Below the pieces are notes generated by a model. It had not been told where the DNA came from and searched no databases. It saw only the letters and a list, made by a program, of their open reading frames with translations. Made by a program: the position numbers and the translations under genes. From Coriobacteriia bacterium (GTDB lineage Bacteria; Actinomycetota; Coriobacteriia; Coriobacteriales; UBA8131), in contig WRHL01000007.1 of assembly GCA_009783245.1 (NCBI GenBank), forward strand, positions 1 to 39,875: a stretch of DNA of 39,875 nucleotides, given 5' to 3'. Of this stretch, positions 29,508 to 33,380 are shown one piece after another. How positions within the stretch are numbered: the first letter of the stretch is position 1; the number at the start of each line of letters is the position of its first letter.

Positions 29508-30719
29508 CTACTGTATCTCTTTTACGATTCTGTCGACCAGCAGGCGGGCGAGGGCCTTCTTGGGGAGGAGCCCGGTGGACTCTGTGTGTTCAGCCGTGAC
29601 AAGATGCCAGCAGTTGTGGGCGCTGGCAAAGCCTATGCTGGGATCGGAGATATCGTTTGCTACGATAAGGTCGGCCTGCTTCTGGTGGAGCTTCTTTCGC
29701 GCTTCCGCGATGATGTCCTGGGTCTCGGCCGCAAAACCCACAATGTAGGCGCTGCCCTTGTTTGCTGCCAAGGTGGCGAGGATGTCGGGGTTGGCGACCA
29801 GCTGCAGCTCAGTTGCGCTGCCAGTGGCAGCCTTCTTCATCTTCTGCTGCTGGGCCTGCTCAGGGCGATAATCCCCCACAGCTGCAGTGAAGATCGCCGC
29901 GTCAAGGCCACCATGAGCAGTGAAAGCCTCCTGTGCCTGCTCGAGCATCTGCTGGGCGCTGGTGACGCGGATGGTAGTGCAGCCAAAGGGATCCGGCAAC
30001 GTGGTGGGGCCGCTTATGAGCGTGACCTGCGCACCGCGCCGCGCCGCCTCCTCGGCAATGGTGTAGCCGGTGATGCCGCTGGAGGCATTGGACAAAAAGC
30101 GCGCGGGATCGAGGTATTCGCGCGTTGGCCCAGCGGTGACCAACAGCTTGCGGCCCGTAAGGTCCTGCGAGCGGTTGAGCTCAGCCAGCACAGCGGCAGC
30201 TATCTCTTCCACGGGCGCCAGACGGCCTTCTCCTATCTCGCCACAGGCCAGATAGCCCTCCTCCGGCTCGATGATCTGTGCTCCGCGCTCCCGCAACTGC
30301 GCCAGCGAAAGCTGGGTGTTCTCGTCGCGCCACATATGCACGTTCATGGCCGGAGCGATGAGCAGCGGCGCCTCGGTTGCCAGGGCTGTGGTGGTGAGCA
30401 GGTTGTCAGCTATGCCTGCAGCCAGCTTGTTGATGGTGTTGGCGGTAGCGGGGGCGATGACAAAGACGCTGGCCTCCTGTGCCAGGCTGATATGGTGGAT
30501 GGGGGCATGCGGGTCATCTATGGGCGCCAACGCCACCTCTTGCCTGGTAAGCGCCCGGAAGGTGGCGGGGGTGACGAACTCAGCTCCCGCTGGAGTCATG
30601 ACCACTTTGACCTGGACGTCCTGTTTCTGCAGGATGCGCACCAGCTCACAGGCCTTGTAGGCGGCGATGCAGCCAGTCACACCAAGCAGGACTGTGGGCT
30701 GGGGGTGACAAGAGCTCAT
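29508..30719 (-). CDS. coaBC: Bifunctional phosphopantothenoylcysteine decarboxylase / phosphopantothenate-cysteine ligase
   Basis: Coenzyme A biosynthesis, 403 residues. The CoaC flavoprotein half (1-180) has LLGVTGCIAAYKACEL, the catalytic His76 (HHISLA), FVIAPATANTINKLAAGIADNLL, APAMNVHMW and the redox Cys159 (GYLACGEIGEGRL). The CoaB half (from about 190) begins KLLVTAGPTREYLDPARFLSNASSG and has VTLISGP, AVGDYRPEQ, and VGFAAETQ followed by LIVANDI. The start ATG overlaps the stop of the RNase HI-QueD gene by 4 nt (ATGA), so the two are coupled. It is the last gene of a three-gene leftward operon with the zinc-ribbon protein. Confidence 0.95.
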   Translation of the reverse strand: MSSCHPQPTVLLGVTGCIAAYKACELVRILQKQDVQVKVVMTPAGAEFVTPATFRALTRQEVALAPIDDPHAPIHHISLAQEASVFVIAPATANTINKLAAGIADNLLTTTALATEAPLLIAPAMNVHMWRDENTQLSLAQLRERGAQIIEPEEGYLACGEIGEGRLAPVEEIAAAVLAELNRSQDLTGRKLLVTAGPTREYLDPARFLSNASSGITGYTIAEEAARRGAQVTLISGPTTLPDPFGCTTIRVTSAQQMLEQAQEAFTAHGGLDAAIFTAAVGDYRPEQAQQQKMKKAATGSATELQLVANPDILATLAANKGSAYIVGFAAETQDIIAEARKKLHQKQADLIVANDISDPSIGFASAHNCWHLVTAEHTESTGLLPKKALARLLVDRIVKEIQ

Positions 30720-31654
30720 CGCGAGTAACCTAATCTGGCCACCGGGGACTCCCAGACGGCGACCTCCACCAACTCGATGCCAACAGGTAGCAGGGCTTCC
30801 AACTGCTCGTAGATTGCCCGCGCTAGATTCTCGGCCGTTGCGTTCATGGCGTCAAAAGGCGGTACCTCGTTGAGATAGGTGTGGTCATACTGGTCAAGTA
30901 TGCTCCTGAGGTTTCGCTTCAGGTCCTGGAAGTCATAGACTATCCCCACCTCATCCAGCTCAGTCCCTCTGACGGTGGCCTCTATATCCCAGGTGTGCCC
31001 ATGCAGGTCCTTGCACTGCCCTGGGTACCCAATCAGGGCGTGGGCTGCGTCGAAGTGCTCCTTTATCGTTAAGGCATAGCTGCCTTTGGAGACGGGGGTT
31101 GCCATGCTCGATCCCTTCTTTTGGGGTGTTTCCTTGGGCTTCTTGGCGGTTTTGGGTGTTGTGGGCGCCGTAGCCTCCAGCGAGAACAGGTCTCCCGCCC
31201 CGTAGGCGACAACGTAGGTCCCCGTCATGGCCTGGCTGTCCATGGCCAGATTCGCCAGCCGGTCCGCCTCGCTGTTCTCCTCGCGCGTCACATGTTTTAC
31301 CGTGAAGGACTCCAGGCCTTCGAGCAGCTGCTTGGCCTCGCGGTGCAGGGGCTTGATCCCCTCGTTCTTCACGCGGTATTCACCCTTGAGTTGCTTGACG
31401 AGAAGCTCGCTGTCCGCCTGGACTGCAAGCACCTTCACCCCCAGTGCGCAGGCGTTTTGCAGGCCCCAGATGAGCGCGCGGTACTCGGCGACGTTGTTTG
31501 TCGCCTTGCCGATAAAGGCGCTTCCGTGGCAGAGGTCCTTCAGCTCGCGGCCATCAGAGACCTCAAGCACAAAACCGATGCCGCTGATGCCCGGGTTGCC
31601 CCTGCTACCGCCATCAGTGCTGAGCCGGGCGCTGCCCAGTGAGAACTCTCCCAT
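30716..31654 (-). CDS. RNase HI-QueD fusion protein
   Basis: 312 residues joining two enzymes. Residues 1-145 are an RNase HI-type domain of the actinobacterial Rv2228c-like class, with the acidic set D14 (STDGGSRGNPG), E57 (NNVAEYRAL), D81 (QADSELL) and D131 (EADRLANLA). A Pro/Lys/Thr-rich linker (160-183) leads to QueD, 6-carboxytetrahydropterin synthase of queuosine synthesis: zinc ligands H205, H218 and H220 (AAHAL, LHGH), catalytic Cys214 (GQCKDLHGH), DHTYLNE and VAVWES. QueD alone can be translated from ATG 31105 (Met184), which has AAGGGA six bases upstream. Start ATG 31654 follows GGGGG by 7 nt. Other queuosine genes are absent. The gene overlaps coaBC by 4 nt. Confidence 0.88.
   Translation of the reverse strand: MGEFSLGSARLSTDGGSRGNPGISGIGFVLEVSDGRELKDLCHGSAFIGKATNNVAEYRALIWGLQNACALGVKVLAVQADSELLVKQLKGEYRVKNEGIKPLHREAKQLLEGLESFTVKHVTREENSEADRLANLAMDSQAMTGTYVVAYGAGDLFSLEATAPTTPKTAKKPKETPQKKGSSMATPVSKGSYALTIKEHFDAAHALIGYPGQCKDLHGHTWDIEATVRGTELDEVGIVYDFQDLKRNLRSILDQYDHTYLNEVPPFDAMNATAENLARAIYEQLEALLPVGIELVEVAVWESPVARLGYSR
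31100..31117 (-). promoter_or_regulatory. Internal ribosome binding site for free QueD
   Basis: In the fusion gene the minus strand reads AAGGGATCGAGCATGG. AAGGGA lies 6 nt before ATG 31105, exactly at the linker/QueD boundary. It would yield a 129-residue QueD, the normal family length. Confidence 0.5.
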
Positions 31655-31709: not shown

Positions 31710-32417
31710 TCACACTTCCACCACCAGCAGCCTGTGGCAATACGGGCACTCGCCGATACGCTCGCCATTGCGCAGCTTCTCCATCTGGCCTTCGGTGAGC
31801 TCAACGCGGCAGCCGCTGCAATGGGTGCCCTCGATATGAGCCGCGCCTCTTCCACCCTTGGACTCGCAGGCCCGCATGTAGCGGGCCAGAAGGTCGGCCG
31901 GCAGTTGTCCAGCCAGGTTCTCCCGTACAACCTGCGCAGCAGACATCTCCTTCTTCAGGGCTCCCGCCTGTGTCTGATATACCGCAAGCAGCTCATCATC
32001 TTGCTTCTTCAGCCTGGCTAAAGCCCCCTTCACCTGTTCATCGACCTGGGCGACCTTATCCACCTTGTCCATCTGCCTGAGCGTCTCGAACTCGATCTTC
32101 TCAATGCGTTTCTTATTCCCCTCGATCTCCTTATTGAGGGCTGCGACTTCTTTGTAGTTGGTTGTGCCGTTGATCCTGGTCTGCGAGAGGGCGATCTTCT
32201 CCTTGAGCGACTCTGCCTCATCCTGCAGCGCCTTGATGGTTCTCTCAGCCTCGTGATGCATCAGCGCTACCTGCTCTGCCTTGGCGTTGACTTCCGCTTT
32301 CTTGGTCCTCAGCTCGAGCAGCTGTCCGCGTTGCGGTAACTCATCAAGCTGCTTCTTCAACCTGAGTATCAAGTAGTCGGTATTGGCCAGTTCAAGCAGG
32401 ATGCTTGCATCACTCAT
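31710..32417 (-). CDS. C4-type zinc-ribbon coiled-coil protein
   Basis: 235 residues. Residues 10-170 are a long coiled coil (TDYLILRLKKQLDEL, EAERTIKALQDEAESLKEKIALSQTRI, NYKEVAALNKEIEGNKKRIEKIE). The C-terminus is a zinc ribbon, HCSGCRVELT with GECPYCHRLL. This family (Rv2229c, CT398 type) is typically encoded between Nif3 and RNase HI genes in Actinomycetota, as here; its role is unknown, possibly with RNA or nucleic acids. It is the first gene of the leftward operon with the RNase HI-QueD and CoaBC genes, and diverges from nif3. Confidence 0.88.
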   Translation of the reverse strand: MSDASILLELANTDYLILRLKKQLDELPQRGQLLELRTKKAEVNAKAEQVALMHHEAERTIKALQDEAESLKEKIALSQTRINGTTNYKEVAALNKEIEGNKKRIEKIEFETLRQMDKVDKVAQVDEQVKGALARLKKQDDELLAVYQTQAGALKKEMSAAQVVRENLAGQLPADLLARYMRACESKGGRGAAHIEGTHCSGCRVELTEGQMEKLRNGERIGECPYCHRLLVVEV

Positions 32418-32467: not shown

Positions 32468-32507
32468 ACTTAGTGTGGCGGGGGGGACAGCCTGTTTTCA
32501 CCCTGAC

Positions 32508-32516
32508 TGCTATAAT
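32508..32516 (+). promoter_or_regulatory. Extended -10 promoter of the Nif3 gene
   Basis: TGCTATAAT (32508-32516) is a perfect extended -10 (TGN-TATAAT). It lies 41 bp from the opposing TATAAT of the zinc-ribbon operon, so the two divergent promoters overlap and may be coregulated. Confidence 0.6.
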
Positions 32517-32570
32517 CAGCCAGAACCTACCGTATCACCCAGGTTGTTTTATGACGAGAAGGGCGGCATT

Positions 32571-33380
32571 ATGGCGAGATTTTGCGTCGGCGACATCGAG
32601 GCCTTGCTCTTTGCAGCGTTCCCGGCAACTGATGCGTTGGAAGATGACCGCTTTGGTTTGCTGGTAGGCGACCGGAAGACCATAGTGAGCAGAGTCGCCG
32701 TCTCCCTTGATCAGACCATCCCGATGATCGAAGCAGCCGCAGCCCAGAGCTGCAACCTGCTTGTCTCGCATCATCCTGCGTTCTGGATGGCTCCGGACAG
32801 CTTCCTTGCAGCTGACTCCGCCGCCGTATCCAGCGGCGCTGTGGTGTTGCGGGCCGCACAACGGGGTGTGGCGCTGCTCTGTCTGCATACCTGCCTGGAC
32901 TGCGCGCCGGCGGCTGCCAGTATGTTGCTGGAACCTGTTGGGCTTGAGTTCGCCCTGCCTTTGAGGGCACATGGAACCGGCTCCCTGGGACAGATCGCAC
33001 GGCCTGCCAAAGGACGTGAATTCATTACGCTTGGTGAACTGGCTGCGAGCTACCAACAGAGCTTTGGCGGTGTGGCAAAGGTCTGGGGTGACCCGGCAAA
33101 ACCCGTCTTCACGGTTGCGACTTGCTCGGGTGGGGCAAGTGAGGTGGTCTCTGAGGTCATCGCAGCAGGTGTCGACTGCTTTGTGACCGGCGAACTCCGT
33201 CATCACGAGGCGCTCTATCTGTCAGACAGCAACATCGCCCTCATCGAGCTGGGGCACGATCTCTCGGAGCTTCCTTATCGTTACTATTTAAGGGAGTCGC
33301 TTGTCACAGGGGGTTTCCCTGCCAGTGACATTGTTGTGCTTGAGCCCAGCGCGACCTGGTGGCAGCCCGGCTCAGAGTGA
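32571..33380 (+). CDS. Nif3-like dinuclear metal-centre protein
   Basis: 269 residues of the Nif3/YbgI/YqfO family, whose dinuclear metal site is known but whose physiological reaction is still debated (GTP cyclohydrolase I-like activity has been proposed). Metal ligands are visible: H67-H68 (VSHHPAFW), the HTCLDCAP block (normally HTNLD), and the C-terminal H/E pair (ELGHDLSELPYRY) with CFVTGELRHHEALY. Start ATG 32571 has AAGGG 7 nt upstream; the open frame starting at 32475 covers the promoter and is rejected. It is divergent from the C4 zinc-ribbon gene, its usual partner in Actinomycetota. Confidence 0.9.
   Translation: MARFCVGDIEALLFAAFPATDALEDDRFGLLVGDRKTIVSRVAVSLDQTIPMIEAAAAQSCNLLVSHHPAFWMAPDSFLAADSAAVSSGAVVLRAAQRGVALLCLHTCLDCAPAAASMLLEPVGLEFALPLRAHGTGSLGQIARPAKGREFITLGELAASYQQSFGGVAKVWGDPAKPVFTVATCSGGASEVVSEVIAAGVDCFVTGELRHHEALYLSDSNIALIELGHDLSELPYRYYLRESLVTGGFPASDIVVLEPSATWWQPGSE

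Follow-up and report, generated by a model that had tools for sequence, protein, structure and literature searches.

A fusion of RNase HI with a QueD-like pterin synthase in Coriobacteriia, with a likely internal start at the domain border and a possible role in folate synthesis

The window analyzed here, a 39,875-nucleotide stretch of a Coriobacteriia bacterium genome (GenBank assembly GCA_009783245.1, contig WRHL01000007.1), carries on its minus strand a frame of 312 aa that opens with the ATG at position 31654, ends its final sense codon at 30719 and stops at 30718-30716 (Table 1). An earlier note, made from the sequence alone, had read this frame as a complete RNase HI joined to a complete QueD, and profile searches bear out that reading. 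Pfam places RVT_3 at residues 13-137 (E 9.6e-25), RNase_H at 12-137 and PTPS at 195-310 (E 6.5e-38), and the protein scores 105.4 bits with the NCBIfam QueD profile TIGR03367 (cut-off 89.25). The profile of the bifunctional RNase H/acid phosphatase, NF005567, gives 135.9 bits against a cut-off of 326, with the match restricted to residues 12-179. The four acidic residues of RNase HI (D-E-D-D) and the zinc histidines, Cys, Asp-His and Glu of QueD are all present and are invariant across 66 relatives, whose rows were chosen by the DGG, DAAH and HGH motifs, the free test of invariance being the remaining positions; this filter excluded rows in which RNase H starts DGA rather than DGG (loci L023 and L161).

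Modeling with AlphaFold (26 aligned relatives) predicted two domains with confidence, joined by a disordered linker, with Met184 at the linker end and domain border. For the first domain Foldseek gave the Rv2228c structure 3hst (rmsd 1.3, TMt 0.91); for the second it gave PTPS enzymes, E. coli QueD among them (4ntk, rmsd 1.2-1.3, TMt 0.90-0.92). The best PDB match of the RNase H half is 3hst by sequence (E 4e-25) as well as by fold (TMt 0.91-0.95), in agreement with the kinship to Rv2228c that had been proposed, and this half is probably a housekeeping RNase HI of the Rv2228c type. An assembly or frameshift artefact was rejected, because the identical single-frame fusion recurs in 22 further genomes of the window's family and in other families.

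Table 1 Coordinates of the RNase HI–QueD gene, its parts and its neighbors in the window
Feature	Position	Strand	Basis
Whole fusion gene RNase HI–QueD, 312 aa + stop	30716..31654	-	Translation, Pfam, AlphaFold
RNase HI domain (RVT_3/RNase_H, residues 12-137), Rv2228c type, DEDD intact	31244..31621	-	Pfam, PDB match, alignment, Foldseek
Disordered linker, residues 156-187, pLDDT below 50, Met184 inside	31094..31189	-	AlphaFold
Putative internal start: AAGGGA 31117-31112, 6-nt spacer, ATG 31105-31103 (Met184)	31103..31117	-	Sequence, comparative SD/ATG test, equivalent start of relatives
QueD/PTPS domain (residues 195-310), motif CKDLHGH, catalytic and zinc residues intact	30725..31072	-	Pfam, NCBIfam, alignment, Foldseek
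CT398 coiled coil and C4 zinc ribbon gene (Rv2229c-like), upstream, co-directional, conserved neighbor	31710..32417	-	Pfam, neighborhood comparison
DUF34/NIF3 gene (Rv2230c-like)	32475..33380	+	Pfam, neighborhood comparison
CoaBC (Dfp), next downstream gene, conserved in own family	29508..30719	-	Pfam, neighborhood comparison

The ATG of coaBC (30719-30717) overlaps the stop of the fusion as ATGA. Upstream of QueD, the gene order NIF3, zinc ribbon, RNase H is common to Coriobacteriia and mycobacteria (Rv2230c-Rv2229c-Rv2228c; PMC7466739). The NIF3 gene points away from the zinc-ribbon and RNase H genes in the window, whereas in most relatives it is co-directional and directly upstream; its divergent orientation is a local inversion. 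NIF3 was considered as a GTP cyclohydrolase supplying QueD, which is not needed, as FolE was found in 57 of 61 genomes.

A search of Coriobacteriia, suggested by the earlier note, found the same architecture in other genomes of the window's own family and in other families; Raoultibacter timonensis is one named carrier. Among the 33 own-family genomes 29 gave a match, and in 23 of them, the window's counted, the two domains form a single-frame fusion. The halves are split in three: the genes overlap by 4 nt (ATGA) in G007, lie ~240 bases apart in G010 and are found on separate contigs in G013. The remaining matches are interrupted by contig ends or have one half absent. The ~240 bases between RNase H and QueD in G010 (L023) contain the RNase H gene end in tandem copies (TTCTAGCGGCGACCTTTTTG), possibly the scar of a repeat-driven split. 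In the other orders of the class, RNase H is followed by QueD as an adjacent and separate gene with few exceptions, and QueD has its own SD, which at L070 reads GAGGAGGCGTC-ATG.

Of the 66 relatives with rows for both RNase H and QueD, 34 are fused and 32 paired. On a tree of these rows, well-supported branches force at least five changes between the two states, the directions of which are our reading of a tree whose root and some forks are not firm; G007, which is paired, is placed beside the window gene at one such weakly supported fork. At three loci (L049, L050 and L052) QueD is in frame with RNase H with a single stop codon between, so that loss of this one stop would fuse the genes. Fusion may accordingly be pictured as loss of the stop between neighboring RNase HI and PTPS operon genes, the fused state having been gained or undone several times. 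Because the pair is class-wide and its upstream order is shared with mycobacteria, QueD most likely adjoined RNase H before any fusion, and comparison of the loci suggests that the pair was probably ancestrally separate in Coriobacteriia. The supposition that fusion had swapped QueD into this lineage does not hold, as the pair occurs class-wide and was fused only afterwards, more than once. The earlier note had named two separate genes here, with a frameshift, as grounds for abandoning the fusion; relatives do have separate genes, but these are intact, and the window gene is an open single frame. A literature search returned no paper bringing together RNase H, 6-pyruvoyl tetrahydropterin and fusion.

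The sequence AAGAAGGGATCGAGC precedes Met184 (window base 31105), with AAGGGA six bases upstream of the ATG, and the product predicted from this start has 129 aa and a mass of 14.4 kDa. The position of this site at the domain border, pointed out earlier, is confirmed by the sequence together with the AlphaFold model. In 22 of 31 unique fusions an ATG falls within the 35 codons that immediately precede the QueD domain (the other nine are without an internal ATG), a stretch where ATG is 2.6 times as dense as elsewhere in the linker (p 0.002). An SD energy of -4 kcal/mol or lower accompanies 82% of those 22 border ATGs vs 11% of 71 other in-frame ATGs (p 8e-9), a comparison slightly favored by picking the best ATG per gene. 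Shuffling of synonymous codons gave no internal SD signal above that dictated by the encoded Lys-Gly residues, and the case for an internal start therefore rests on the placement of ATG and SD and on the split relatives.

Most fusions of the window's family keep both SD and ATG at the QueD border. Genus g48 lacks the RNase H part in its three genomes (G114, G130 and G177), where QueD opens at the zinc-ribbon stop with ATGAAAGG or ATGGAGG. The g48 QueD retains a linker, NAPYEGPGKLSG, homologous to the linker of the Raoultibacter fusion, MKGTSMEHNPAYSGPGRLTG, and its start matches the Raoultibacter internal start, ATGAAAGGGACATCC-ATG. Release of free QueD from an internal start, which the earlier note had raised as a possibility, is thus supported by the signals kept in most family fusions and by the use of an equivalent start in split and RNase H-less relatives. 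We consider internal initiation at Met184 likely, and no stronger word is warranted because the choice of the best ATG favors the result and the codon shuffle adds nothing. A ribosome site persisting at the old QueD start would give free 14.4-kDa QueD beside the 34-kDa fusion.

Active sites have decayed in several relatives. G038 retains an intact RNase H next to a PTPS half that no longer has HGH and Cys, while in G081 (L194) and G167 (L193) both active sites are broken and the fused frames, of 297 and 306 aa, stay open. Each of these three genomes has a second PTPS. Since g48 is without RNase H and these three show decay, either half can be lost without the other. The repeated switching, the loss of one half and the active-site decay suggest that the RNase HI and PTPS halves probably work independently, the former presumably on RNA:DNA hybrids and the latter in pterin metabolism; the domains of the mycobacterial RNase HI–CobC fusion act independently in vivo, as judged from knock-outs (PMC7466739).

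The genome of the window (G000) contains another composite frame, of 712 aa, in which FolP, FolK and an RsmI-type methyltransferase (TP_methylase) are joined (L153 394-2529, contig C27); in G004, FolK-RsmI are fused (547 aa) and FolP is separate. FolP-FolK-RsmI is a second fusion of unrelated neighboring enzymes in the lineage. An adaptive RNase H–QueD fusion, coupling removal of RNA:DNA hybrids to pterin/folate supply or displaying RNase H domains on a QueD hexamer, would account for the several changes to the fused state, for its long retention in one family and for the open frames of G081 and G167, which may reflect a non-catalytic role or slow decay. We hold such an adaptation to be very improbable in view of the splits and the complete loss of one half in some relatives. 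The separability of the halves in evolution, the disordered and variable linker and the FolP-FolK-RsmI fusion in the same genome lead us to regard the RNase H–QueD fusion itself as probably drift; knock-outs led to a like interpretation of the mycobacterial RNase HI–CobC protein (PMC7466739).

The earlier note had tied the protein to queuosine precursor synthesis and proposed looking for queC and queE elsewhere in the genome. With a curated profile, no own-family genome (0 of 33) reached the cut-off for QueC, nor did any of the 55 other-order genomes that carry RNase H-linked QueD; its only occurrences are in families f2 (20 genomes) and f5 (one). G167, an f2 genome, combines QueC with an RNase H-linked QueD copy, and that copy is dead. 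The strongest QueC-like similarity in the own family is partial and under cut-off (E 3e-20), in a 342-aa frame of G025 (L079, contig C34). QueE was found in the queDECF operons of f2 only, by a single-sequence query that is less sensitive than the QueC profile and evidently misses some QueE. The tgt gene is nearly universal in the group and was not found in the window genome, an 80%-complete assembly.

An ordinary QueD, making 6-carboxytetrahydropterin for queuosine, with the fusion tying tRNA modification to RNase H, would agree with the TIGR03367 score, the CxxxHGH motif, E. coli QueD among the closest folds and the prevalence of tgt. However, the absence of QueC largely refutes it, the QueE that was found belongs to canonical operons, co-occurrence with queC/queE is lacking, and tgt by itself fits salvage of queuine or preQ1; we find an ordinary QueD quite unlikely. 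The link to queuosine thus falls away, as QueC is absent in all tested genomes with intact RNase H-linked QueD, and FolB is absent from these genomes too. Absence of both FolB and QueC points to folate rather than queuosine.

In the own family, FolB was detected in 0 of 33 genomes, FolE in 31 and FolK in 28, and the folate cluster reads ftsH-folE-folP-folK without folB. In the window genome folE, cut by a contig break, is followed by the folP-folK-rsmI frame, again with no folB; FolP was read directly in G000 and G004. Class-wide, 200 genomes divide into 148 with PTPS and 49 with FolB, one having both and four neither (Fisher p 3e-40, phylogeny not corrected for, most FolB genomes belonging to one family). 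Family f10 and the f2 genus g47 are two separate lineages that have FolB and no PTPS. The one genome with FolB and PTPS together (G211; L196, L184) has a PTPS of the CENLHGH type.

The motif of the RNase H-linked QueD is Cys-only, and position -3 is R, K, A, S, Q, C or H, never Glu, in 66 of 66 rows. The genome context expected of PTPS-III (FolB absent; FolE, FolK and FolP present) is found in the own family, with FolP in G000 and G004, but the active-site Glu of ExxHGH is missing. This glutamate is the accepted rule for folate bypass (PMC5041015, PMC2229834): a folate-making PTPS needs it, and Plasmodium E38C and E. coli QueD yield no 6-hydroxymethyl-dihydropterin (PMC2229834). A Glu at -5 (GECxxLHGH consensus) was rejected as a substitute, the window clade having Gln and others Pro. 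Those stand-alone PTPS proteins that were read carry CENLHGH in f2, f5, f6 and f7 and CEALHGH in f3, a Cys-plus-Glu motif being that of folate-capable PTPS-I/III hybrids (PMC5041015). A report on biopterin in gut Actinobacteria (PMC5227711) rests on qPCR primers and has no bearing on the fusion gene.

The Cys-only site resembles that of enzymes that yield no folate precursor (PMC2229834, PMC5041015), as would suit a QueD half making another pterin, such as 6-carboxy- or 6-pyruvoyl-tetrahydropterin, with an unrecognised enzyme replacing FolB. We judge this unlikely, because PTPS alternates with FolB across the class and, within f2, the Cys-only and CENLHGH types replace each other, the RNase H-linked copy having decayed where both occur (G038, G081 and G167). 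Weighing genome context slightly above known chemistry, we infer that the QueD half probably substitutes for FolB at the missing folate step. It would then convert dihydroneopterin triphosphate to 6-hydroxymethyl-dihydropterin rather than provide preQ0 for queuosine. Whether the Cys-only, RNase HI-linked clade provides many Coriobacteriia with their replacement for FolB in folate synthesis is, in our estimate, an even call. The combined account, in which neighboring operon genes fused, the halves stayed independent, an internal start persisted and the PTPS half serves folate, is a little likelier to be right than wrong.

The interest of the locus lies in this conflict, context saying that a Cys-only PTPS fills the FolB gap and known chemistry saying that it does not. 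The class is largely without FolB and many members are also without the glutamate-type bypass enzyme, pointing to a probable gap in folate biochemistry for which many FolB-less Coriobacteriia have one obvious candidate, against the accepted motif rule. If the candidate is right, the glutamate taken as diagnostic is not required for folate bypass, and many proteins annotated as QueD in organisms without queC are wrongly named. A single locus also displays fusion, splitting, a retained putative internal start, the disappearance of one half and the decay of one or the other, and so supports drift over coupling as the origin of an odd two-enzyme protein.

Among known systems, QueD (PTPS-I, 6-carboxytetrahydropterin synthase) shares with the window-type protein its fold, zinc site, CxxxHGH motif and TIGR03367 match, but the latter is without queC/queE partners and is linked to RNase H rather than queDECF. 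PTPS-III, the FolB bypass, belongs to the same superfamily and occurs in the same setting of missing FolB with FolE, FolK and FolP present, and differs in the ExxHGH glutamate that defines it. The stand-alone CENLHGH PTPS of other Coriobacteriia families is mutually exclusive with FolB and alternates with the RNase H-linked type, yet has Cys plus Glu and no RNase H link, and lies within queDECF at the f2 loci L076 and L077. The RNase HI–CobC proteins of mycobacteria and streptomycetes (Rv2228c, MSMEG_4305, SCO2299) end in a CobC phosphatase domain, whereas the C-terminal partner in Coriobacteriia is PTPS/QueD; both have the same type of N-terminal RNase HI, NIF3 and zinc-ribbon neighbors and a linker to a metabolic enzyme.
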